From: a virus
Length of the DNA stretch: 64,000 nt
Reading direction: 5' to 3' (one strand)
Virus record (IMG/VR): IMGVR_UViG_3300047317_001031
Span: 64,001 to 128,000 of that record
Shown: one piece after another, positions 11,832-60,314 of the stretch
How the letters are laid out: the number at the start of each line of letters is the position of its first letter
Position numbering within the stretch: the first letter of the stretch is position 1
Program-made: the position numbers and the translations under genes
Notes under the pieces: generated by a model
What the model saw: the letters and a program-made list of their open reading frames with translations, nothing else
Database searches by the model: none
Told to the model about the DNA's origin: nothing

Positions 11832-13787
11832 TTGAGCGAAGTCGAGTATGCCGAAGAAGAAATTGCCATGCTCCCCATGCAAGAGAAGATGTTCTTCTAT
11901 GATGAAATTTGGGGAGGAATGCGAGGCGGACAAGGTTGCCAACCCGCAGGTTCGTTAGTTCTTCTCGCGAGCGGCAAATGGAAAGACGTTAAATATGTAA
12001 ACCCCGGCGACATGCTCTTGTCTCCGCAACATGACGGATCAATGATCCCGGCAACCGTTGAAGAAGTATATCGTTACGAAAATTCTCCTATTTATGAAGT
12101 AATTACGACGCACAGTGATATAGAAACATACCGTTATATTTGCTCGGGAGATCATATTCTTCCTATAAGGTTACGCCATGAAAAAGGTCTCTGCGAAATA
12201 GGCGTTAAGGCGTATTACGATATGCCTGATGCGAAGAAACCGCTAGGGAAGATATTTGGCATTTCTCATAGAGATAGCAAAAAGATAAAGCATTATAGGT
12301 TTTTGGTTCGTCCCGTTGGGAATTCTACGGTCTACGGATTCACGCTTAACTCTCCGTCAAGTTGGTACGTCACGGACGGGAACCTCATTACGCATAATAG
12401 CGGGAAGTCGCTTGTAAATGCATACTGGCTTTGGCTCCGTCGCATGGAAGAGTATCCGAAGAGCAACTTTGTAGCGGTCGGGGCTACCTATCAGCAGTTG
12501 CGTGAGGGGTTCTTCGCCGGGTTCGTCAACATGCTCGTGAAGCGCGGTCTTGAAGAAGATATCGACTTCATGTATCGGGGAAGCCCGAGGCCATGGATAA
12601 AACTTCTCTACTCCGGTGCAAAGTTACATAGTTGGTCTGCGGATATCGTCTCTCGCGTCCGCGGCACGAGCGTTCAAACTATTATTTTAGAAGAACCTCA
12701 GACATGGGGGAAAAACGCTGAAGCCGCTTGGATTTCCGTTCAGGGTCGGTTACGCCCCAACGAATTAACGAAGCAAATATATCCTGATTTAGTTCCGCAA
12801 GGTAGGTTATCGTTTAACCCTACGGACGTCGGTCCTGGGCATTGGTTATACGATATGCTCGAAAACCGTTGGCCGAAAGAAGGCTGGGTTTGCGAGCGTA
12901 TGAGCACGCGCGACAACACGCTGCTCCTTGACGATGACCCGGATTATATTCGCAAACTCGAAGCCTCCATGTCGCCCGATCGTTGGCCGATTGAAATCGA
13001 CGGCGAGTACGCGACGTTCGGCGGAGAAATATATCGCGGGTTCCGACCTGCTATCCACGGCGTATGGAAAGATGGGCTTCCGCTCATCGCGCTTGATAAA
13101 ACGAAGCCGATCTTGTGGACGTTGGACTTCAACATTGGTTGGATGTCGAGCGTCGTCGCTCAGGCGCACACGCAGACGCAAATCGTGACGGGATACGAGC
13201 CGAGGCTAAACTTGCCTCCGAACCCGATCATCGCGAATTTCATGCCGGATTGGCAGCGGAACATTTTCGTCGTCTTGGACGAATTCTTCTTGCGTAATTC
13301 TACGGTGCGCGATGCGACGAACGCATTCCTCTCCTCTCCATACGGAGAACATGCGAAAGAACTCTCTCGTCAAGGGCACGTCGGCGTACGCCTCTACGGC
13401 GACTCCACGGGCGGCAATCGCAATCAACAGACAGCGCTTTCCAATTGGGAAGTGGTCATGAGCGAATTGCACGATGCCGGCATTCGCATGGACGTCCGTG
13501 TCCCGCATAACCCGAGCGAACTAGATCGCGTCAATGCGATGAACGATCAGTTCCAAACGGGCGAAGGATACGGGTTGCTTGTTGATCTCAACAAATGTGA
13601 GAACCTCATACGAGACTGGCAAGGAGTCAAACGTAAAATCGGAACGAATGAAATAGATAAGAGTGATAAAAGCGAATCCGGGTTACGTTTAACGCATTTG
13701 AGCGATTCCATGGGGTATCTCGTCTATGTTGAAAGACGACTCGCAAAGCGTGAGCCGATCAAATTCCTTGATTTTATAAACAGATAA
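11832..13787 (+). CDS. terL: terminase large subunit precursor interrupted by an intein
   Basis: 651-residue precursor from a TTG start; 497 residues remain after removing the 154-residue intein, a normal TerL length. The split Walker A reads GGMRGGQG before and SGKS after the intein. Walker B-like TIILEEPQTW follows, and the C-terminal nuclease carries WTLDFNIGW and RLYGDSTGGN, consistent with the metal-binding aspartates. The ATPase/nuclease cuts and packages DNA at the portal. No small terminase gene was recognised next to it. Confidence 0.93.
   Translation: MSEVEYAEEEIAMLPMQEKMFFYDEIWGGMRGGQGCQPAGSLVLLASGKWKDVKYVNPGDMLLSPQHDGSMIPATVEEVYRYENSPIYEVITTHSDIETYRYICSGDHILPIRLRHEKGLCEIGVKAYYDMPDAKKPLGKIFGISHRDSKKIKHYRFLVRPVGNSTVYGFTLNSPSSWYVTDGNLITHNSGKSLVNAYWLWLRRMEEYPKSNFVAVGATYQQLREGFFAGFVNMLVKRGLEEDIDFMYRGSPRPWIKLLYSGAKLHSWSADIVSRVRGTSVQTIILEEPQTWGKNAEAAWISVQGRLRPNELTKQIYPDLVPQGRLSFNPTDVGPGHWLYDMLENRWPKEGWVCERMSTRDNTLLLDDDPDYIRKLEASMSPDRWPIEIDGEYATFGGEIYRGFRPAIHGVWKDGLPLIALDKTKPILWTLDFNIGWMSSVVAQAHTQTQIVTGYEPRLNLPPNPIIANFMPDWQRNIFVVLDEFFLRNSTVRDATNAFLSSPYGEHAKELSRQGHVGVRLYGDSTGGNRNQQTALSNWEVVMSELHDAGIRMDVRVPHNPSELDRVNAMNDQFQTGEGYGLLVDLNKCENLIRDWQGVKRKIGTNEIDKSDKSESGLRLTHLSDSMGYLVYVERRLAKREPIKFLDFINR
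11937..12398 (+). other. mini-intein in the TerL P-loop
   Basis: 154 residues beginning with Cys36 of the precursor (CQPAGS) and ending THN before Ser+1 (SGKS). Block-B-like YICSGDHILP and block-F-like VYGFTLNSPSSWYVTDGN are visible. Length and lack of LAGLIDADG or HNH motifs show a mini-intein without a homing endonuclease. The insertion falls exactly inside Walker A, so ATPase activity requires splicing. Confidence 0.92.
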
Positions 13788-15587: not shown

Positions 15588-17225
15588 GTGGGCTATCGTG
15601 AGATAAAGGGGAAAATCAAGTACCCGAAAGGCACGACGGAACGATACAAGCGCCTTGACGCATATGATCGTCTCCGCGAAGGAACGCTCTACGACCATAT
15701 CCGCACGCCTTTTGATTGCGAAGAAGAGGGCGGACAGTATATCCGCATGCGTGAGCGCCGCCCTTCTATCATATGGCAATGCCCGCGGCTTATCGTTGAT
15801 CAGCTTTCCGGTCTGCTTTGGGGCGACGAGCAGATGCCGATCGTCCGTACGTATTACGGAGAAGAACCGACCGACGAAGACAAGGCAGCAGAAGACGGCA
15901 TTCAGCACCTCGTAGAAATTCTTAATCTTGACGCTGTTATGGACGAGATTACGGAAAAGGCTTCGTCTGGAAGCGCAGCCGTCGTTTTACGCGCAGTTGA
16001 AGGGATCGAGGGAGACGGAAACGATCCGTATATAGAGATCATTCCTGGTAAAGAATGCAAGCCGACATTTGATCCGAAAAATCCGAAGAAACTCGTAAAA
16101 ATAGAACAACTCTATCCGACGACGGGGCAAGCGCTTCGAGATATCGGATACGATAAGGATGTTATCCCGGACGAGGAACTTGATAAGGATTTTTGGTTCC
16201 GGTTGGAGATTGACGATAAAGAAGAAATCCGTTACTTCCCCATGCGTTCCGACCGTTACGAACGTCTTGGACAAATCGAAGGCGGCAAGAAAATAGAATG
16301 GGAAATTGATAAGGAAAATTCCATAGCGCACGAATGGCCCGCGCTTCCCGTTATCTGGGTAAAGGGTCCCAAGGGAAATCGTATCGACGGCGACTGCCTC
16401 TACGGTTCCATCATTGATATCCTAGTTGAAATTGACTACTCGCTCTCGCAGATCGGGCGAGGATACCGCTACACGGCAGATCCGATGCTCGCCTACAAGC
16501 GGGGAGAATTACGTCAAGGCGTTATCCCGGCAGCTTTTGATAATGTTGAGGATCGTACTCAGCGTGACGAAAACGGCCAAGTCATCAAGTCGCCGAACAA
16601 CGTGCTTGATATCGAACCGGGCGGCGATGCGAAGTACCTTGAGATAAGCGGCGACGGCCTTAAATCGTCTGGAGAATTCGTCAAGCTTCTTCGCGAGTGG
16701 GGGCTTGAAATCTGCGGCGGCATGAAGTCCGATGCGGAGACGACGAGCGGCGTCCAAAGCGGACGAGCTCTCGAAATTCTCTACCAAGCGCTGATCCTGG
16801 TCATCAAGCGGTGGCGCGTAGCGGTCGGCAATGGCGCTTTCCTCCCTCTTATCCGCATGTTGCTTACCGGGATGGAAGACGGCGTGATAACCGTCAACGG
16901 CGTTGATTCTCTTGATCCGAAAACGACCATGCGGCTTGTTTGGCCCCAGTGGATGACGCCTAGCGGCTCAGACCTCTTGGCATCGGCTCAAGCTTGGCAG
17001 TCGCTTGCGGGCGGCTCCGCTACGGCTCCCGTTCCGATCTTGCCGCGTATGACCGTGACGAGAATCGCGGGAAGCAACCTCGGCATGCCGGACGTTTCGA
17101 CGCTTATCAAGACGTTGGAAAAACAGAACAACGATGATGACGCAGATCAACTCGAATCCGAGGATCGCGCTCATCAGCGTCAAGTCGAGATTAAAAAAGT
17201 ATCCACAAAACCTAAGATCATATAG
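15588..17225 (+). CDS. portal protein
   Basis: 545 residues from GTG. The gene lies two genes after terminase and before the scaffold-like and capsid genes. Features fit SPP1/A118-type portals: YKRLDAYDRLREGTLYDH, RRPSIIWQCPRLIVDQLSGLLWG, ALEILYQAL, and an acidic C-terminus. The dodecameric portal would form the DNA entry channel and terminase docking site. Confidence 0.8.
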   Translation: MGYREIKGKIKYPKGTTERYKRLDAYDRLREGTLYDHIRTPFDCEEEGGQYIRMRERRPSIIWQCPRLIVDQLSGLLWGDEQMPIVRTYYGEEPTDEDKAAEDGIQHLVEILNLDAVMDEITEKASSGSAAVVLRAVEGIEGDGNDPYIEIIPGKECKPTFDPKNPKKLVKIEQLYPTTGQALRDIGYDKDVIPDEELDKDFWFRLEIDDKEEIRYFPMRSDRYERLGQIEGGKKIEWEIDKENSIAHEWPALPVIWVKGPKGNRIDGDCLYGSIIDILVEIDYSLSQIGRGYRYTADPMLAYKRGELRQGVIPAAFDNVEDRTQRDENGQVIKSPNNVLDIEPGGDAKYLEISGDGLKSSGEFVKLLREWGLEICGGMKSDAETTSGVQSGRALEILYQALILVIKRWRVAVGNGAFLPLIRMLLTGMEDGVITVNGVDSLDPKTTMRLVWPQWMTPSGSDLLASAQAWQSLAGGSATAPVPILPRMTVTRIAGSNLGMPDVSTLIKTLEKQNNDDDADQLESEDRAHQRQVEIKKVSTKPKII

Positions 17226-17242
17226 GAGATCAGAACTAACGT

Positions 17243-18022
17243 ATGGACCCCGAAAAAACTTCGTCCGAGACGACGGAAACAACGCAAGCTACTGAATCCA
17301 CGAAGGAGACGGGGCAAAAAGGCGCTGAGTCCGTAAAGCATGAGCAAGGGAAGACCGACTCTACCACTCAAGCCGCCACTACGACGAAAAAGACCGAAAC
17401 AGAATCGTCGGTTAGCGAATATGAGAAGCAACTCCGCAAAGAGAACGAAAATGAGCGTAAGAAACGCCAAGACGTAGAACGACGTGCGGATGATGCTGAA
17501 AAAGAACTTAAAGAACTCAAAAAGTACAAAGAAGATCAAGAAAACGCAGAACTCGCTGCGCAGAAGAAGCATGAGGAAATCGCCTCAAAGGAACGCAAAG
17601 CGCGCGAGAAAATCGAAAAAGAACTCGAAGAAGAACGGAAAGTCAACAAGCGAGAGAGACTCCTTGACCGCGCTGAAACGTTCGCCGCGAAACTCGGAAT
17701 CCTTGATGAGTATGTCGAGGATCTACGCGCATCGCTAGAGCGTAAGGCCGACAAGGAAGACATCACATTCGATGCGCTTTCCGAACTTGTCGAGGGATAT
17801 AAACAATCGAAACCCCGTTGGTTCAAAGACGAAGAAGTGAAAAACGAAACCACCAAAACCACGACCGAAACCAAAAGCAAGACCGAAGAAGAGAAAAAGA
17901 AAGCTACCTCTTCAGCAACTCCGTTACGGAAAGACGCCGGCACGGAAGCAAAAGTTGACCATAAGGCATTGGACAAGAATGATTGGACAAAACTTATGGC
18001 TTCCTACGGCGTAAGAGCCTAA
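17243..18022 (+). CDS. scaffolding-like coiled-coil protein
   Basis: 259 residues. Thr/Glu/Lys-rich disordered N-terminus, a long charged coiled coil (about residues 55-145, KELKELKKYKEDQENAELAAQ) and a helical C-terminus (DKNDWTKLMASYGVRA). Position between portal and capsid and this composition match head scaffolding proteins. No protease domain seen. Confidence 0.75.
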   Translation: MDPEKTSSETTETTQATESTKETGQKGAESVKHEQGKTDSTTQAATTTKKTETESSVSEYEKQLRKENENERKKRQDVERRADDAEKELKELKKYKEDQENAELAAQKKHEEIASKERKAREKIEKELEEERKVNKRERLLDRAETFAAKLGILDEYVEDLRASLERKADKEDITFDALSELVEGYKQSKPRWFKDEEVKNETTKTTTETKSKTEEEKKKATSSATPLRKDAGTEAKVDHKALDKNDWTKLMASYGVRA

Positions 18023-39777: not shown

Positions 39778-40495
39778 TCTAGCCGTGCAACCGGCAGATG
39801 TGGGAAAGAATCGTCAACTTTAGAAGAGGGCTGACGATTTTTTCTTTTCCCTTTGTAAAGAAAAATCCCTACCTGCCGATACAAGCAGGAACATTTTCAC
39901 TAGCACGGGAAATGTCAGGGACCCGGCCTGATAACCCGGATGCGATACCCGATGTCACGAGAAAAGTAACACCCGCTACTGGCGAGGTGTATTTTGCTAT
40001 TCCCATGGTGAATTATTCGAAAAGTGTGTTGCACGTTACACACTTTTGCCTGGAAAGTGTGTTGCGGGTGATACACTTTCGGGATAAATGTTTTAGCCGT
40101 TTTCGCCTTATCCCATAAGGTCTTTCGCCCATTTTTGAGCCAATCTCGCTATTCTAATGATTCTAAGTCGTCTATTTGCCCCGGCACCGATATTGAGGAT
40201 AAGCGCCTACGCGGCGGGCGGATAGGGCGACCCCGATAATCCGATAAAGGGAACCTTAAAAATCAAACGTGGGGCGGCGGAGCCGTCACACAAGCGGTCC
40301 CAGAACAAGACTATCCCCCGTCCTCCTTTGCACGACGGATCAAGATTGGGAAAGAGGCCCATAGGTTGCCCTAGGAGGCCCGTTCCCTGATTCCCGAGCC
40401 TTGGAGTGCATCAAGATGCCTTCCACGCGCTCCACAGGCCATTCTTGGGGCTTTTGCGCGGAAGGCGACCCATGCGAAGAGATGTCGGGTGAACC
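39778..40495. other. long noncoding region with tandem palindromes
   Basis: About 718 bases with no convincing gene (one ORF at 39798-40118 is dubious). It holds two spaced 28-bp palindromes (40020-40080). The rest shows no clear promoter or terminator to me. It may be a control region or an origin. Confidence 0.5.
40020..40080. repeat. two tandem 28-bp palindromes, 33 bp apart
   Basis: Copy 1: AAAAGTGTGT, 8 bases, ACACACTTTT (40020-40047). Copy 2: GAAAGTGTGT, 8 bases, ATACACTTTC (40053-40080). Arms are almost identical, and the 33-bp phase is about three helical turns, as expected for a cooperatively bound operator or iterons. Confidence 0.85.
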
Positions 40496-42133: not shown

Positions 42134-42601
42134 TTGAAGAATTTAAGGCTGCTTTTAGCGGCTTTTTTCATTTTTGCGGCCCTGTTCTTCGCCCCGCGAC
42201 AGGCAGATGCCACGACATGCGTCCTCCCCTACCCGAACGCTCCGCCGCTTTATACCTCCGCTGATCCGAACGTCGTATGGGGAAATTTCAATGCCCTTGC
42301 TGCGTGTTTGCTTATAACGCCGCAATCGGCTACGGCGACGTTAAGTACCGTCGCGTCAAGCGCCTCGTCGGTTACGCTGCTCGCCTCAAATAGTATCCGA
42401 AAGGGCATGATCATCTACAATAACTCAACGCAGTTTTTGTATTTGGCGTTTGCCGCTTCCGCTTCGACAAGTGTTTTTACTTATCCGATTCCGCCCGGCG
42501 CGATCTATGAGAACAGCGGTCTTGACACGCTTTATACCGGCAAAGTAACGGGCATATGGCCGAGTGCGAACGGTAGCGCGATTATAACGGAGGAGAAGTA
42601 A
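42134..42601 (+). CDS. exported beta-rich protein
   Basis: 155 residues from TTG with GGAGGG seven bases upstream. Signal peptide MKNLRLLLAAFFIFAALFFA, cleavage near QADA (about 26). Mature part Ala/Ser/Thr-rich, beta-rich (SSVTLLASNSIRKGMIIYNNS). First of four consecutive exported proteins. Confidence 0.65.
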   Translation: MKNLRLLLAAFFIFAALFFAPRQADATTCVLPYPNAPPLYTSADPNVVWGNFNALAACLLITPQSATATLSTVASSASSVTLLASNSIRKGMIIYNNSTQFLYLAFAASASTSVFTYPIPPGAIYENSGLDTLYTGKVTGIWPSANGSAIITEEK

Positions 42602-45909: not shown

Positions 45910-46479
45910 ATGACTCGTCAAGAATGGCTATCTGAGGTTGAACGACGCTTAAAAATAAATGAAGGTTCAGAACCATACGTCTATACGGATTCGATGGGAA
46001 TCCCCACGATAGGGATTGGGTTTAATTTGGATCGAGTGGACGCTCGTGCGGCGCTCGCCAAGATCGGCGTTTCGGATTTCGAAGGTATTTTGTCCGGAGA
46101 CATATGCCTTACGCAACCGCAGATTGACGCGCTCTTTGATTATGCGTTCGCTCCAATTGAGAGAAACGCAAACATTTCGCTAGGTGCCGGGATTTTCGAT
46201 GCTCTCTCCGACGCTCGCCGGTTTGTGTTGTGTGACTTAGAATATAACTTAGGGCAACGAGGATGGTTAGGATTCACGGCCACGAGAGCGATCATCAATG
46301 AAGCCCAGGCATCCAAGAACGCTGGGAGATTTGAGCAGGCGAGCGCGCTATTCGGGATTGCAGCGGATCACCTACGCGCTTCCGCATGGGACGGTCAGGT
46401 CGTGGATCGCGCCCGACGTGACGAGGCAATGATGCGTTCGAGCGTATGGGTAGATGCAAACGGAAACGGCTTCAATTAA
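45910..46479 (+). CDS. endolysin, T4-type lysozyme (GH24)
   Basis: 189 residues. The catalytic triad spacing is exact: Glu18 (INEG), Asp27 (YTDSMG), Thr33 (PTIGIG). Cleaves peptidoglycan between MurNAc and GlcNAc after the holin opens the membrane. No signal peptide, so export depends on a holin. Confidence 0.92.
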   Translation: MTRQEWLSEVERRLKINEGSEPYVYTDSMGIPTIGIGFNLDRVDARAALAKIGVSDFEGILSGDICLTQPQIDALFDYAFAPIERNANISLGAGIFDALSDARRFVLCDLEYNLGQRGWLGFTATRAIINEAQASKNAGRFEQASALFGIAADHLRASAWDGQVVDRARRDEAMMRSSVWVDANGNGFN

Positions 46480-46491
46480 GTAAGGAGAGAC

Positions 46492-46689
46492 ATGGGAGAT
46501 TGGTCGATTACTATCATCGGTACGGGATGTCACCATAACGACAAGCCTGAGATTGACGCAAACGAGGCGACGAAATACTTCGTGAAACGTCTCAAGGAAC
46601 AGGGGCATACGATTCACCATGCGTCGTTCGTGAGCGGCGGTCGTGATCATACGATCCTTGATGACGACGGGCATAAGGCTTGGGCTTGA
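46492..46689 (+). CDS. hypothetical small protein
   Basis: 65 residues behind AAGGAGAG. MGDWSITIIGTGCHHN then a helix (ANEATKYFVKRLKEQGH) and HHASFVSGG; possibly a small alpha/beta domain. I recall similar short phage proteins of unknown function. Confidence 0.6.
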   Translation: MGDWSITIIGTGCHHNDKPEIDANEATKYFVKRLKEQGHTIHHASFVSGGRDHTILDDDGHKAWA

Positions 46690-46914
46690 CCTGCATGCTA
46701 TGATGCCGGAAAGCAGCGTTGAGGTGCCATTAGCGTTGCTTTGGGTCCCCGGAGAGCGTGGGAGACTGTGGGTGATGGTCGCTATCGCGAGATCGTCGCC
46801 TCGAAAACCTGTCGTCTGAAAAACCGGGAGCGGGTCTTCACAAACTGATCCGGACAGGAGAGGGACGACGTAGATGCTCCCTAGCGGGGACCGATTGGTC
46901 TCCGTTTTTCGTTG
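46690..46914 (+). ncRNA. candidate structured noncoding RNA
   Basis: 225 bases without an ORF between the small gene and the first paralog. A -10-like TATGAT (46699-46704) near the 5' end and a strong terminator at the 3' end would give about a 200-nt transcript. Internal complementary blocks such as AGGGA/TCCCT (46861-46882) and GTCGTC/GACGAC suggest folding. Fails to match any class I know. Confidence 0.45.
46886..46909 (+). terminator. intrinsic terminator
   Basis: GGGGACC, loop GATT, GGTCTCC then GTTTTT. Ends the candidate noncoding RNA and insulates the next leaderless promoter. Confidence 0.85.
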
Positions 46915-46918
46915 TGTC

Positions 46919-46947
46919 TTGACTTTGTAAAGATTCCGTGGTTTAAG
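46919..46947 (+). promoter_or_regulatory. leaderless promoter A
   Basis: TTGACT, 17 bases, TTTAAG, then six bases to the ATG at 46954. Shares TTGACTTTGTAAAG with promoter B at 47658, so the pair was duplicated with its genes. Confidence 0.7.
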
Positions 46948-46953
46948 TTCCTT

Positions 46954-47598
46954 ATGAAGAAAAAAGGCCCTGGGAAAATGGTCTCTGAGGCGTTACGGAT
47001 GCCTCTCGCGAAGATCAGCGACTTCGTGAACCCTGAGGATTTTCCGCATGACGCAGATCCGAAATTGATAAAGATAAGCAAAAGCGGATACATACGAAGT
47101 CATCTTATTGCTCGCAGATACGCAGTCGGATTGCAGTCTCCGATAGGGAGATCCGGCAAGCCGTCCATTTTTAGGCTCTACCCGGACGGGGATGCTCCAG
47201 CCCTTACGAACGCCAGCAAAGGCTCAAGAAAGAGAAAGCAAGCGAGAAGGAAGTATGTAGCGCAGACGACTGCTGCCGCCGTCATCGCGATCGAAAAGAA
47301 GCCGCAGTCAAAGAATGGGAAAATTCTCCCAACGATTGAGGATCTCGCGGCGATCATCGCACGCGTTAGAGAAATTGAAGGCCCTGTCACAAGAGATTCC
47401 ATTGATGCTGAAATGCTCAAAATGCGAAATAGAATCAGCATTGCGAGTATTGAGGACATCCTTTCGCTTTCCAAGGAACTTTCGGAACTCGCCCAGTCAC
47501 GGAATGAGCAATCCCTTCGAAGAAAAGAAGCGCTTACTCAACTCTCGCAAGACGAGACGTTTCAGCAGAGAGACTTCCTCCATCTTATCGCCGTTTAA
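46954..47598 (+). CDS. paralog A of a two-gene family in the lysis region
   Basis: 214 residues from ATG with no ribosome site but a -10 box six bases upstream. Shared with paralog B: an N-terminal LIARRYAVGLQSPIGRSGKPSIF...YPDG block, a basic linker, LPTIEDLAAIIARV, and a C-terminal QQRDFLHLIAV. Helical C-terminal half. Own promoter and terminator. Function unknown; possibly a regulatory or nucleic-acid-binding pair. Confidence 0.65.
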   Translation: MKKKGPGKMVSEALRMPLAKISDFVNPEDFPHDADPKLIKISKSGYIRSHLIARRYAVGLQSPIGRSGKPSIFRLYPDGDAPALTNASKGSRKRKQARRKYVAQTTAAAVIAIEKKPQSKNGKILPTIEDLAAIIARVREIEGPVTRDSIDAEMLKMRNRISIASIEDILSLSKELSELAQSRNEQSLRRKEALTQLSQDETFQQRDFLHLIAV

Positions 47599-47613
47599 AA
47601 ACCCAAATTGGGA

Positions 47614-47652
47614 ATCAGGAAAAGACCGCCGATCAAACGGTCTTTTCCTGAT
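47614..47652 (+). terminator. intrinsic terminator after paralog A
   Basis: 15-bp perfect inverted repeat ATCAGGAAAAGACCG/CGGTCTTTTCCTGAT with a nine-base loop, followed by TTG. It abuts the next promoter. Confidence 0.8.
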
Positions 47653-47657
47653 TTGTC

Positions 47658-47686
47658 TTGACTTTGTAAAGTTCTGTGGTTAAACT
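47658..47686 (+). promoter_or_regulatory. leaderless promoter B
   Basis: TTGACT, 17 bases, TAAACT, seven bases to the ATG at 47694. Repeats the TTGACTTTGTAAAG block of promoter A. Confidence 0.7.
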
Positions 47687-47693
47687 GGAATAT

Positions 47694-48302
47694 ATGAAAA
47701 CCAAAGGCGTTAGAAACGCACTCGCTGCGGTTTATAATATGCCGCTAGCGACGGAAGAGCATTTCCGAAACAAAACCGACATGCCTAATGAGGTTGATCC
47801 GAGCCTCCTGCGAGTTAGCACGGACTCCAACGTACGGCATCAGCTTATTTCTAAGGGATATGCTCACTCAATCCAATCACCGATCGGGCGAGACGGGTAT
47901 AAAAGTATTTTACACGTTTATCCCGATGGCGGAGCCCCTGAAACCCTTAAAAAAGGAGAACGCATTCGTAAAAATAGCGAATCCGTATATAGCGGATCAT
48001 ATAAGAATACAAAGCGGCTTCCAACGCTTGATGATTTGAAAGCGATTATAACGCGCGTGGATGCCGTCGAGGGCCACCTCGCTAGAGAATTGAGCATGAA
48101 GACGGAAGCAGAAATGCTTCAGCTCCAAGCGAAAATAGCATCTGCGACGGTAAACGAAATATATGCATTATCGTCAGAATTAGCGGAAATCGCTAAAAAA
48201 CGAGAAAACGCGCGATTGTACGTAAGGGAAGAAGCCCTTCGAAATGTTCAGCGAGATCCAGATTTCCTCCAAAGAGATTTCATTTCGCTCATCGCCGTGT
48301 AG
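47694..48302 (+). CDS. paralog B of the two-gene family
   Basis: 202 residues. Shares with paralog A LISKGYAHSIQSPIGRDGYKSI...YPDG, LPTLDDLKAIITRV and the C-terminal FLQRDFISLIAV; spacing and order are identical. Leaderless start. Function unknown, but duplication and separate transcription suggest independent expression levels matter. Confidence 0.65.
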   Translation: MKTKGVRNALAAVYNMPLATEEHFRNKTDMPNEVDPSLLRVSTDSNVRHQLISKGYAHSIQSPIGRDGYKSILHVYPDGGAPETLKKGERIRKNSESVYSGSYKNTKRLPTLDDLKAIITRVDAVEGHLARELSMKTEAEMLQLQAKIASATVNEIYALSSELAEIAKKRENARLYVREEALRNVQRDPDFLQRDFISLIAV

Positions 48303-48324
48303 AGACGCGATTGTATCCAACCCG

Positions 48325-48355
48325 AAAAAGACCGTCATGATGATGGTCTTTTTTT
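48325..48355 (+). terminator. intrinsic terminator after paralog B
   Basis: AAAGACC(G)TCAT / ATGATGGTCTTT hairpin then TTTTTG. Separates paralog B from the holin gene. Confidence 0.85.
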
Positions 48356-48375: not shown

Positions 48376-48609
48376 ATGAAACCTCTGCACCCTGGAATAA
48401 CAATATCCGCAATCTTGGGAGCGATTATTTCCATGGGGATTTCCCTCACGGCCCTAAGCGCGCCCCTTCATACGCTTTTTGGGGAGAACGCAGATAAGAT
48501 CGTTTCGGTTTCTGCTATCGTAAGTGCGCTACTCGCATGCGTTGCCGGCATCGGAAAGAGTCCCTTATCTTCTGATTCTGCGCCTGCCGAGAAAGAACCC
48601 AAGCAATGA
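48376..48609 (+). CDS. holin-like small membrane protein
   Basis: 77 residues with two membrane helices (about 6-28 TISAILGAIISMGISLTALS and 42-60 IVSVSAIVSALLACVAG) and a charged tail. Typical class II holin shape; one of three likely lysis membrane proteins in the cassette. Would permeabilise the inner membrane for the endolysin. Confidence 0.72.
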   Translation: MKPLHPGITISAILGAIISMGISLTALSAPLHTLFGENADKIVSVSAIVSALLACVAGIGKSPLSSDSAPAEKEPKQ

Positions 48610-55279: not shown

Positions 55280-55816
55280 ATGGGAAGACCTATTGTCGAT
55301 ATGGTTGGACGTAAGTATGGGAGGCTAACGGTGGAGTCTCGCGCTCCCATAAAGAGGCAACGATTTGACCAGGCAACCTGGAATTGTATCTGTGAATGCG
55401 GAAACAAAATCGTCTTGCCGGGGAGCTTTCTTCGGGGAGGTTCATATAAAAGCTGTGGTTGTTTCCGACGCGATAGGATGGGGCAAGTTTTCAGGAAGCA
55501 TGGCAAGTCAAAAACCCCGCAGTATTGCGCTTTCTATGATGCTCGCAAGAGATCCATAGAATATAGTCTCCCATTTGATATTGAGCCGGAAGATATCATT
55601 ATACCTGAAACGTGTCCGGTTCTTGGTGTCAAACTTGTAAGCGGTGGCCCGCGAGACAATGCTCCATCACTAGATCGTGTTATCCCTGAACTTGGGTATA
55701 CGCGCGGGAATATACGGGTCATATCATTTCGCGCAAATCGCATAAAATCGGATGCGAGAATCATTGATCTTGAGGCAGTTATAAAGTATATTCGTGAGGC
55801 AACTTGCGATATCTAA
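55280..55816 (+). CDS. HNH-type homing endonuclease
   Basis: 178 residues; start chosen at ATG 55280 behind AGGAGG. N-terminal module GRKYGRLTVESRA...WNCICECGNKIVLPGSFLRGGSYKSCGC is the recurrent DNA-binding domain of phage endonucleases; C-terminal CPVLGVKL...APSLDRVIPELGYTRGNIRVISFRANRIKS fits an EndoVII/HNH-like nuclease (D-R-x-x-P...GN...N..K). Lies between helicase and methyltransferase and overlaps the latter by 13 bases. Confidence 0.85.
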   Translation: MGRPIVDMVGRKYGRLTVESRAPIKRQRFDQATWNCICECGNKIVLPGSFLRGGSYKSCGCFRRDRMGQVFRKHGKSKTPQYCAFYDARKRSIEYSLPFDIEPEDIIIPETCPVLGVKLVSGGPRDNAPSLDRVIPELGYTRGNIRVISFRANRIKSDARIIDLEAVIKYIREATCDI

Positions 55817-58263
55817 GTGTATGCTCTGGAATCGAAAGCGCGAGCGTAGCTTTTGAACCTTTAGGTTGGGTCCCCGTAGCATTCGCAGAGATCGATCCGT
55901 TTGCATGCGCTGTTCTCAAACACCGTTTTCCGCATGTACCGAATCTCGGCGATTTTACAAAGATAGGATTAGATGATGTCGGAGCAGTTGACCTTATTGT
56001 CGGAGGAACGCCTTGTTTCGGAGCAGGAACCCTGATACTCACGAAACAGGGATTCCATCCTATTGAGGAAGTCAAAATCGGCGATATGGTTTTAACTCAC
56101 AAGGGCCGATATCGCCCCGTTACAGCAGTTGGATCGAAAATTGCACCAACAGTCAAGCTATGCGCTCAAGGAACAAGCGGAACAATAACGACAAAGGAAC
56201 ATCGGTTTCTCGTTGCGGATGTTCAACGTTGGGCTACTCATGAAAACGGGAAAAGTATTCGAAAACTTGAACGACACAAAGAAGAGTGGAGAGAGATCAG
56301 CAAGAGCATAGGATCGTACGTCGCTTCTCCGCAGGAATTTCCGTCGCTGATCATTCCGCCGATTTCGCTTAAAGGACGTGAGTTTCCATTTGAGATAAAA
56401 AACAAGCAAGACTTCTTTTGGATCATCGGGGCTTGGGTTGGAAATGGATGGGTTCAGATAGACCGGCGACGCGGACGAGCCGTTATATCTGCACGCAAAG
56501 GGAAGAAGGCTCAGGAAATGGCAGAGCACCTTTCCGCAGGGATCTATAATTTCTGCGAGGTCAGTGAATCCACGTCGCAGAAATTTCACATTGCGTCACG
56601 CCCATTGGCTCGATGGCTTTCACAAGAGTTTGGATCAGGCGCCGTTAATAAACAAATTCCGTCGTGGCTTTTGGGCTCCGAAAAAGAATTACGTGGGGCG
56701 TTTATGGAGGGTTATCTTGCGACGGACGGATGTATTCCGTTGGGAAAGCCCTATATGTCGTTCACAACGGTCTCACGGAAATTGGCTTTCGGGATTCGCA
56801 TGCTTGCACAGTCGCTTGGTTTTTCCGTAAGTGTTCATCTGCATATTCCTCCGACTACATGCATCATCGAGGGACGAACCGTTAATCAGCGACCTCTCTA
56901 CACGATTCGCGTCCCTAAAGATGCACGATCATCGTGGGCGCGGGACAGTTATCGTTTTGGGTTGGTTCGGAAAGTTGAAGAAACCGGATCATTGGATCGT
57001 GTATATGACATCACCGTGGAAGAGGATCATTCGTATGTCGCAGATGGATTTTGCGTTCACAACTGCCAAGACTTCTCCGTTGCGGGACTCCGAGCGGGGA
57101 TGGATGGAAAGCGTGGTCAACTCACGATCGAATTCATTCATCTTCTTGAGCGAATTCGGCCCCGCTGGGTGGTTTGGGAAAACGTCCCCGGCGTCTTGTC
57201 AAGTGACGACGGACGGGCGTTTGGAACCTTTCTCGGAGCGTTGGGGAAACTCGGGTATGGGTTCGCTTACCGGATTCTTAACGCTGAATACTTCGGTGTT
57301 CCACAACGACGCAACCGCGTCTTCGTTGTCGGATATCTTGGAGACTGGCGACCTCCCGCAGCGGTATTATTTAACAAAGATAGCTTGTGCCGGAATCCTC
57401 CGCCGAGCAGAAAAACGGGGGAGATCGCTGCCCCCCTCCTTGCGAGCGGCGTTGGAGCAGGCGGCGGGGCTTCCGACAACTCCGCAATAGCGAATCACCT
57501 CGTAGCGAATGCCTTGACGGGGAATGCCTACGCAGATCGCGCCGGAGAAGAAACGAATCTCATCGCGCATACGCTTCGAGGCGAAGGCTTTGATGCATCA
57601 GAAGATGGGACGGGGCGCGGAATTCCGCTCGTCGCCGCATTTTTAGGAGGCCAATCTTCACAAGCAAGAAGCCTCGCCTATAGCGAATCGGTTTTCCCTA
57701 CGCTTAAGGCCGCTTCAAGCGGAACGAATCAAGTCCCGAGTATAGTTGCGGTCGTAAATGGAAATAGCACGCCCGAAGTTTCCATGGATATCGCTATGCC
57801 CTTACGAGCGAACGACGGAAGCGGGAATCGACAAGCGATTTTAGCGTTTGATACGACGCAGATTACCTCGCCTCAAAGCAGAAGCCATCCGAAGCCGGGA
57901 GATCCATGTCATCCGCTAGCAGCGGCAGCGCACGCCCCCGCAATCGCTTTTCAGCCAAAAGCATCCGTCACGCAAAGTATGAGCATCGGCGAAACGTGCC
58001 CGACGATCGGAACGACGAAAGAACCGGGAGTTTATACTCGCATGGCGATACGGAGATTAACTCCTACTGAGTGCGAAAGACTACAGAATTTTCCTGATAA
58101 TTTTACGTTAGTCCCTTATCGCAGGAAACTCGCAAAAGATGGCCCACGATATAGGGCGATCGGGAATAGCATGTGTACTTCCGTTATGTCTTGGATCGGA
58201 AAACGTATTCAACTGGTAGAGGAAATACGAAATGCGAAAGAAAGTTGCTCCACAGAATGTTAA
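55804..58263 (+). CDS. DNA (cytosine-5) methyltransferase precursor with intein
   Basis: 819-residue precursor from TTG; 469 after removal of the 350-residue intein. Motif I YLSVCSGIESASVAFEPLGW, motif II AFAEIDPFAC, GGTP|CQDFS split by the intein, ENVPG (motif VI), VPQRRNRVF (VIII), TECERLQNFPDNF and RAIGNSM (IX/X). A long target-recognition region sits between VIII and IX. Methylates cytosine to protect phage DNA from host restriction, or self-marks it. Confidence 0.92.
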   Translation: MRYLSVCSGIESASVAFEPLGWVPVAFAEIDPFACAVLKHRFPHVPNLGDFTKIGLDDVGAVDLIVGGTPCFGAGTLILTKQGFHPIEEVKIGDMVLTHKGRYRPVTAVGSKIAPTVKLCAQGTSGTITTKEHRFLVADVQRWATHENGKSIRKLERHKEEWREISKSIGSYVASPQEFPSLIIPPISLKGREFPFEIKNKQDFFWIIGAWVGNGWVQIDRRRGRAVISARKGKKAQEMAEHLSAGIYNFCEVSESTSQKFHIASRPLARWLSQEFGSGAVNKQIPSWLLGSEKELRGAFMEGYLATDGCIPLGKPYMSFTTVSRKLAFGIRMLAQSLGFSVSVHLHIPPTTCIIEGRTVNQRPLYTIRVPKDARSSWARDSYRFGLVRKVEETGSLDRVYDITVEEDHSYVADGFCVHNCQDFSVAGLRAGMDGKRGQLTIEFIHLLERIRPRWVVWENVPGVLSSDDGRAFGTFLGALGKLGYGFAYRILNAEYFGVPQRRNRVFVVGYLGDWRPPAAVLFNKDSLCRNPPPSRKTGEIAAPLLASGVGAGGGASDNSAIANHLVANALTGNAYADRAGEETNLIAHTLRGEGFDASEDGTGRGIPLVAAFLGGQSSQARSLAYSESVFPTLKAASSGTNQVPSIVAVVNGNSTPEVSMDIAMPLRANDGSGNRQAILAFDTTQITSPQSRSHPKPGDPCHPLAAAAHAPAIAFQPKASVTQSMSIGETCPTIGTTKEPGVYTRMAIRRLTPTECERLQNFPDNFTLVPYRRKLAKDGPRYRAIGNSMCTSVMSWIGKRIQLVEEIRNAKESCSTEC
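56014..57063 (+). other. intein with degenerate LAGLIDADG nuclease in the methyltransferase
   Basis: 350 residues, from Cys71 (CFGAGT) to VHN before Cys421 (CQDFS). Block B TITTKEHRFLV, block F VYDITVEEDHSYVADG. Two LAGLIDADG-like helices: FFWIIGAWVGNGWV (about residues 204-217; catalytic Asp replaced by Asn) and AFMEGYLATDGCI (about 299-311; Asp kept). Cys+1 is also the enzyme's catalytic Cys, so only spliced protein is active. Confidence 0.9.
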
Positions 58264-59991: not shown

Positions 59992-60021
59992 TTGACAAAA
60001 CATATGACGACAGGATACGCT
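59992..60021 (+). promoter_or_regulatory. promoter upstream of the tRNA array
   Basis: TTGACA, 18 bases, TACGCT, then six bases to the ATG at 60028. First perfect -35 hexamer seen. May drive the short ORF and, if the terminator at 60200 is read through, the tRNA array. Confidence 0.6.
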
Positions 60022-60027
60022 CTAGGC

Positions 60028-60168
60028 ATGAGAACCGTAGGCATAGTCTCAGAACAGCCCAAGCCGTCCGCAAAAACAGCGGATTGCTTTAGCTATGCCC
60101 GCCAATCGTGGAATATTATGACCTTGAATTTCGGGAACACGCACGGTTGGAGCGGAACAGGCGGCTAA
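60028..60168 (+). CDS. 46-residue leaderless ORF
   Basis: ATG six bases after the -10 box; no ribosome site. Ends in a Gly/Ser/Thr-rich tail (NTHGWSGTGG). No family recognised. The promoter spacing matches the other leaderless genes, which is its main support. Confidence 0.4.
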   Translation: MRTVGIVSEQPKPSAKTADCFSYARQSWNIMTLNFGNTHGWSGTGG

Positions 60169-60199
60169 GTCGGAAGGTAGTCTCAATCAAGTTTGAGAG

Positions 60200-60231
60200 C
60201 ACCTCTCGGCAATAGCCGGGGGGTGTTTCTC
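60200..60231 (+). terminator. intrinsic terminator or attenuator before the tRNA array
   Basis: CACCTCTCGGC, loop AATA, GCCGGGGGGTG (11 bp with G-U pairs) then TTTCTCTT. A weaker hairpin TCTCAA/TTGAGA is at 60181-60198. It sits between the promoter and tRNA-His, so it may attenuate or process tRNA transcription. Confidence 0.65.
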
Positions 60232-60238
60232 TTATATG

Positions 60239-60314
60239 GGGTCGGATGCCGAAGCGTCGAGGCGCATGCCTGTGAAGCATGATCAAGCGGATTCGAGTTC
60301 CGCTCGACCCACCA
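60239..60314 (+). tRNA. tRNA-His (GTG)
   Basis: Loop CTGTGAA between CATGC and GCATG, acceptor GGGTCGG/TCGACCC, A73, CCA encoded. G at 60238 could serve as G-1. Confidence 0.85.

Follow-up and report, generated by a model that had tools for sequence, protein, structure and literature searches.

Two paralogous genes, each predicted to have its own promoter and terminator, lie in tandem between the endolysin gene and a holin-like gene of an uncultured, probably alphaproteobacterial phage. That they form a tandem-duplicated, self-transcribed and moron-like pair, with leaderless mRNAs and DNA-binding (auto)regulators as products, is a reading to which we give about even chances. Paralogy, promoter identity, the spacing between -10 element and ATG, the terminators and the position can all be read directly from the sequence, whereas leaderless translation, DNA binding, autoregulation and a history of insertion are inferred. 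The DNA analysed, here called the window, is a stretch of 64,000 nucleotides (positions 64001-128000) of a 128,918-base IMG/VR virus record, and positions refer to the window unless the record is named.

We hypothesize that tandem duplication of an ancestral promoter-gene-terminator unit, within the late lysis region, gave rise to two diverged genes. Each would be transcribed alone by the host's RNA polymerase of sigma-70 type, from a CTTGACT promoter whose -10 element adjoins the start codon. The mRNAs would start at or beside the AUG and be translated as leaderless messages, and the terminators T0, T1 and T2 would shield each unit from the other and from late transcription. The paralogs probably bind DNA via a winged-helix-like N-terminus and oligomerise via a helical C-terminus, with the conserved imperfect palindrome ACTTTGTAAAGT, which overlaps both -35 elements, as the likely common operator for auto- or cross-regulation.

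Two paralogous genes in the lysis region

On the plus strand the order is endolysin, 65-aa orphan, ORF-poor segment, T0, promoter 1 and gene 1, followed by T1, promoter 2, gene 2, T2 and a 77-aa gene (Table 1). The original prediction had placed the cassette in the lysis region, and this location is supported by the Phage_lysozyme endolysin and the 77-aa two-TM protein that flank it. Upstream of the cassette, the last gene that can be recognised is that of the endolysin, in which hydropathy revealed no signal or TM segment; the 65-aa gene is the final one ahead of the ORF-poor segment, and the 77-aa gene is the first one downstream. Neither of these two small proteins matched a family in Pfam, NCBIfam or PHROGs.

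Table 1. Features of the cassette and its neighbours (window positions)
Feature	Position	Strand	Basis and remarks
Endolysin (Phage_lysozyme)	45910..46479	+	Pfam PF00959, E 3e-5
65-aa orphan protein	46492..46689	+	ORF list, codon score; SD AAGGAG
ORF-poor segment	46690..46882	+	ORF scan, folds; two good hairpins, 46710-46742 and 46770-46801
Extended -10-like TGCTATGAT	46696..46704	+	Sequence; weak promoter candidate
Terminator T0	46883..46906	+	Fold z-score -2.7
Promoter 1	46915..46948	+	-35 TTGACT 46919-46924, 18-nt spacer, -10 TTAAGT 46943-46948
Gene 1	46954..47598	+	214 aa, pI 10.1; paralog alignment, codon score
Terminator T1	47613..47653	+	16-bp perfect stem, bidirectional; fold z-score -5.8
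Promoter 2	47654..47686	+	-35 TTGACT 47658-47663, 17-nt spacer, -10 TAAACT 47681-47686
Gene 2	47694..48302	+	202 aa, pI 9.2; paralog of gene 1
Terminator T2	48324..48354	+	Bidirectional; fold z-score -4.8
77-aa holin-like protein	48376..48609	+	Hydropathy: two TM-like segments

The two proteins had been proposed as paralogs, and in fact they align over their full length with 40% identity and 56% positives (BLASTP E 5e-49). Because their codon usage resembles that of the phage's known genes (in-frame scores of 0.11 and 0.15 bits/codon for genes 1 and 2, respectively, against strongly negative scores in the other frames), both are regarded as real genes, and both start codons are supported because the alignment begins at residue 1 of each protein.

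The terminators predicted around both units were also recovered, with T0 ahead of gene 1, T1 after gene 1 and T2 after gene 2. Since the stretch from T0 through promoter 1 aligns with that from T1 through promoter 2 as a single block, the duplicated unit is probably terminator-promoter-gene. The same three terminators, all located between the endolysin gene and the 77-aa gene, might instead lower or delay the expression of a holin that the cassette proteins would tune, but a role in lysis timing of this kind seems very improbable to us, given that the 77-aa protein is holin-like by hydropathy alone and that nothing ties the cassette proteins to lysis. The decision or timing switch that had been suggested for the cassette is a conjecture, helped indirectly by the winged-helix-like N-terminus of the proteins, by the operator-like block common to both promoters and by the position of the three terminators. 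A toxin-antitoxin or defence reading was rejected, as PADLOC returned no match and two insulated paralogs do not make a toxin-antitoxin operon.

Promoters and predicted leaderless layout

A promoter right ahead of each paralog is predicted by consensus. The -10 element ends 5 nt from the ATG in gene 1 and 7 nt in gene 2, and no SD was found upstream of either ATG; because of this proximity and the missing SD, the mRNAs of both genes should be leaderless. The absence of an SD alone says little, since no more than 54 of the phage's 129 ORFs have one, a moderate share against a background of 16%.

The layout itself was counted over the 129-kb genome. With the -10 element required to lie 5-7 nt ahead of the ATG of an ORF of at least 40 aa, it was found at 5 of the 93 CTTGAC sites, whereas the 179 hexamer permutations used as controls gave a mean of 0.22 (sd 0.48, max 3). 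At all five sites the C of CTTGAC is located 36-37 nt upstream of the ATG. A test on distance only (36-38 nt) yielded six sites, a number reached by 1 of the 179 control motifs, and is weaker than the test that includes the -10 element. The other three sites with the leaderless layout precede ORFs of 607, 417 and 46 aa, and the start of the 417-aa ORF is supported because the alignment of its product with phrog_2319 (E 5e-60) begins at residue 1. If our reading is true, leaderless translation would therefore become something that can be tested for a single promoter class of this phage, because unrelated genes have the leaderless spacing in common.

By E. coli standards, the -10 elements TTAAGT and TAAACT are poor. 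The combination of CTTGAC with a poor -10 element fits alphaproteobacterial promoters (PMC2573895, PMC9320726).

Two of the other genes with this layout have features of their own. The 607-aa protein, encoded outside the window (record 15655-17515, plus strand), is transposase/TnpB-like and related to OrfB_IS605/TnpB, with RuvC-like DxGxS, ENLS and CxxC motifs and matches to PHROG 506 (E 1e-15) and Pfam PF01385 (E 1e-3); among solved structures no match was found. The 46-aa frame (window 59992-60240) is situated just ahead of the tRNA block and is followed by a hairpin-like T-rich stretch. On the minus strand a family of strong promoters, CTTGACT-N17/18-TAATAT/CATAAT, was observed at record positions 42600, 44414, 46634, 48181 and 49203, some of them near-identical across 30 nt, and these are probably early promoters.

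Shared promoter block and candidate operator

A promoter sequence common to both units had been noted, and the identity proved longer than noted, covering the 18 nt of TGTCTTGACTTTGTAAAG at 46915-46932 and 47654-47671; most of the following 12 nt also agree between the copies. Window-wide, TGTCTTGACTTTGTAAAG has 11 matches at no more than 3 mismatches versus 4.4 expected, and these two are the only exact copies. The coding sequences of the paralogs are strongly diverged: identity at third positions is down to 34%, only 11 of 25 fourfold sites match, and no identical run exceeds 8 nt. Because the promoter block is intact while the third coding positions are nearly saturated, it appears to be under selection and to have been kept beyond the -35 and -10 hexamers.

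The block contains an imperfect palindrome, ACTTTGTAAAGT at 47661-47672 in the promoter of gene 2, and CTTTGTAAAG is present in both promoters, the gene 1 copy being located at 46923-46932, in the block ahead of the -10 element. The palindrome is short, and CTTTNNAAAG occurs at 3 sites in the whole record (two here and one at 39851) versus about 2 expected. A shared operator would be the simplest reading of the common block. Its rival is a recent gene conversion or partial re-duplication, for which two copies lying 739 nt apart could indeed have exchanged sequence; nevertheless, the strong divergence of the downstream coding sequence, and the coincidence needed for a tract limited to about 30 nt around the promoter, make this explanation quite unlikely, and we keep the shared operator as the preferred reading.

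The ORF-poor segment upstream of the cassette

The stretch preceding promoter 1 had been described as an ORF-free segment of 225 bases and as the source of the cassette's own RNA. With a cutoff of 60 aa, positions 46690-46880 are free of ORFs and constitute one of six such stretches of at least 150 nt in the first 60 kb, but with a cutoff of 40 aa only 46820-46880 is free, and a 58-aa frame (46643-46819) enters the segment from the preceding gene. Likewise, the predicted -10 element TATGAT is present at 46699-46704 and, with a TG one base upstream, has the form of an extended -10 (TGCTATGAT), but it is not paired with a -35 element: none was found at usable spacing, and a nearby TTGACC is only 7 nt off.

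Two frames overlapping the segment were rejected as genes. A 39-aa frame (46700-46819) scores -0.09 bits/codon, below the genes, and is not preceded by an SD. A minus-strand frame (window 46372-46992), stop-free for 206 codons and running opposite the 65-aa gene and the ORF-poor segment, lacks a start over that segment; it is probably a coincidence.

Most likely the segment is a 3' UTR, belonging to the transcript of the lysozyme and 65-aa genes, which would end at T0. We prefer this reading because such a 3' UTR, closed by the terminator at the boundary of the cassette, accounts for the segment with fewer assumptions. An alternative is that 46705-46908 is a phage small RNA, started from TGCTATGAT and ended by T0, that acts on phage or host mRNA or on a protein. 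In 225 nt of a single strand, the sequence TGnTATnAT is expected just 0.018 times; the segment is also ORF-poor, and a strong hairpin at its 5' end (46708-46745, z -3.6) accompanies the terminator (z -2.7). However, besides the missing -35 element, the fold of the whole segment, scored along the region and compared with background windows, is unexceptional, its z-scores being -1.8 to -2.3 when the terminator is included and -0.9, no better than chance, without it. No match at the gathering threshold was obtained in two modes of Rfam searching, which gave chance-level matches up to E 10, and no similar DNA was found in phage and plasmid collections. Against 209 gene 5' regions the best duplex reached -60.6, compared with a mean shuffle minimum of -57.8, and no convincing target emerged. 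As a late 3' UTR with a terminator accounts for the same features, we consider the small RNA unlikely. A noncoding RNA gene in 46690-46882 is thus not established. Of the proposed self-contained cassette with its own RNA, the duplicated promoter-gene-terminator units stand, with their paralogy, shared promoter and terminators, and the RNA is not supported, having no significant fold beyond the terminator, no Rfam family, no relative other than an identical copy and no target that beats shuffled sequences.

Predicted fold of the paralogs

AlphaFold2 models of genes 1 and 2, built from two sequences, have mean pLDDT values of 65 and 56, respectively, and display a fairly confident N-terminal region followed by a disordered linker and a helical C-terminus. 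In the N-terminal 80 residues pLDDT is mostly 80-89 for gene 1 and 66-82 for gene 2, except in the loop near residues 61-70. The linker of gene 1 (about residues 85-120) is disordered and basic, and its helical C-terminus ends in QRDFLHLIAV.

For residues 1-80 of gene 2, most of the listed structural neighbours are winged-helix regulators (MarR, SlyA, MecI/BlaI, Fur) with Z values of 2.8-4.0, and Foldseek listed PadR, MarR and forkhead folds for the N-terminus, all with E above 0.5 and without significance. The N-terminal 80 residues therefore resemble winged-helix regulators weakly but consistently, which is a hint and not a proof, and no regulator-family profile in Pfam, NCBIfam or PHROGs matched either protein. 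The C-terminus gave many helical-bundle matches, which were discarded as uninformative for identity. The paralogs are probably DNA-binding (auto)regulators.

They could also be early host-takeover or accessory proteins with no role in DNA binding, in which case the basic linker would bind either RNA or some host protein. The high pI values of both proteins and their disordered linker, basic in gene 1, are compatible with such a function, as is the fact that they are orphans in all collections searched, and promoters of the CTTGACT class occur on the minus strand as well, in the genome's other half. By itself, host takeover explains neither the winged-helix-like N-terminus nor the conserved promoter spacer, and we regard it as a possible but rather doubtful alternative to DNA-binding regulators. 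Far more demanding is the view that the phage has a dedicated class of leaderless, monocistronic genes read by the host polymerase, CTTGAC-N17/18-(-10)-ATG, with this pair among them as a new DNA-binding family, and that through the operator shared by both promoters the two proteins make up an auto- and cross-regulatory circuit, placed between endolysin and holin, that sets the timing of lysis or lysogeny; this we hold to be highly improbable.

Distribution of the paralogs

The only further copy of the locus that was found is on a second contig, which is identical over a stretch of 9.8 kb and evidently derives from this same virus. Searches of viral and genome collections with exact and degenerate 8-residue peptide patterns, taken from the whole, the middle and the C-terminal half of the proteins, found no homologs elsewhere, distant homologs lacking these patterns being liable to be missed, and tblastn found none in phages and plasmids. 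A profile search of 50 capsid-related viral records, most of them short and none known to span the lysis region, gave no match, and neither protein matched Pfam, NCBIfam, PHROGs or PADLOC. The paralogs, having no known relatives, would define a new family.

The sequence TCTTGACTTTGTAAAG is found elsewhere at 63 viral loci, and a profile search of these loci detected no homologs of the paralogs outside the same virus. Some of the loci (L080, L082, L092, L101, L104 and L107) display a terminator (GCCACCTTCGGGTGGC and a T-run) that immediately precedes TCTTGACTTTGTAAAG with its TAnGAT -10 element, that is, a back-to-back terminator-promoter with the same 16-nt -35 block as the paralogs, ahead of unrelated genes. 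No relative shows the site without the cassette, which may have been inserted.

Comparison with known systems

Phage morons are autonomous accessory genes of temperate phages (PMC7067206). The cassette resembles them in being stand-alone, with its own predicted promoter and terminator, among late or lysis genes and with orphan content, but differs in comprising two tandem paralogs with predicted leaderless mRNAs and in belonging to a phage for which a search for tyrosine integrases gave nothing and a single resolvase-family recombinase was detected. If our reading is true, the cassette would show in compact natural form how a stand-alone gene can persist within a late operon, with promoter, start codon and insulators fused into one unit of about 750 nt that lends itself to being copied as a whole.

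Leaderless initiation is known for lambda cI, a phage regulator whose mRNA is leaderless (Shean & Gottesman 1992, as cited in PMC12340547), and for bacterial genes with a -10 element adjacent to the ORF (PMC12340547). As in these cases, the -10 element lies 5-7 nt from the AUG, no SD is found and the product is putatively DNA-binding; in contrast, the sequences are unrelated, a CTTGACT -35 element is present here, and the layout is common to a few unrelated genes of the same phage. The predicted leaderless, duplicated and insulated unit, with its preserved promoter block, is in our opinion the part worth keeping.

The sigma-70 promoter consensus of S. meliloti is CTTGAC-N17-CTATAT (PMC2573895). 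The promoters of the cassette share with alphaproteobacterial sigma-70 promoters the CTTGAC -35 element, the 17-18-nt spacing and a weak -10 element, although TTAAGT and TAAACT deviate from this consensus. Similarly, the predicted order of helices and strands and the weak structural neighbours of residues 1-80 liken the paralogs to winged-helix regulators such as MarR, PadR and BlaI/MecI, from which they differ by a long helical C-terminus without known counterpart and by the lack of a profile match.

The phage and its host

The genome encodes a contractile-tail gene set and carries a large tRNA block at 60.3-64 kb; a tyrosine integrase was looked for in the phage and not found, and one protein of the resolvase family was detected. 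With the Komagataeibacter phages phiKX1/2 the phage shares about 34% identity in the major capsid protein and 29% in the portal protein, and capsid relatives at 60-70% identity are known from short metagenome contigs only. The host probably belongs to the Alphaproteobacteria, the pointer being only the capsid relatives in the Komagataeibacter phages. Elsewhere in the window, a terminase-like ORF (11832-13787) contains an apparent intein, CQPAGSLVLLASGKWK ... VTDGNLITHN as read from its translation, and an 819-aa methyltransferase-like ORF (55804-58263) likewise has an intein-bearing look in translation, CFGAGTLILTKQGF ... YVADGFCVHN.
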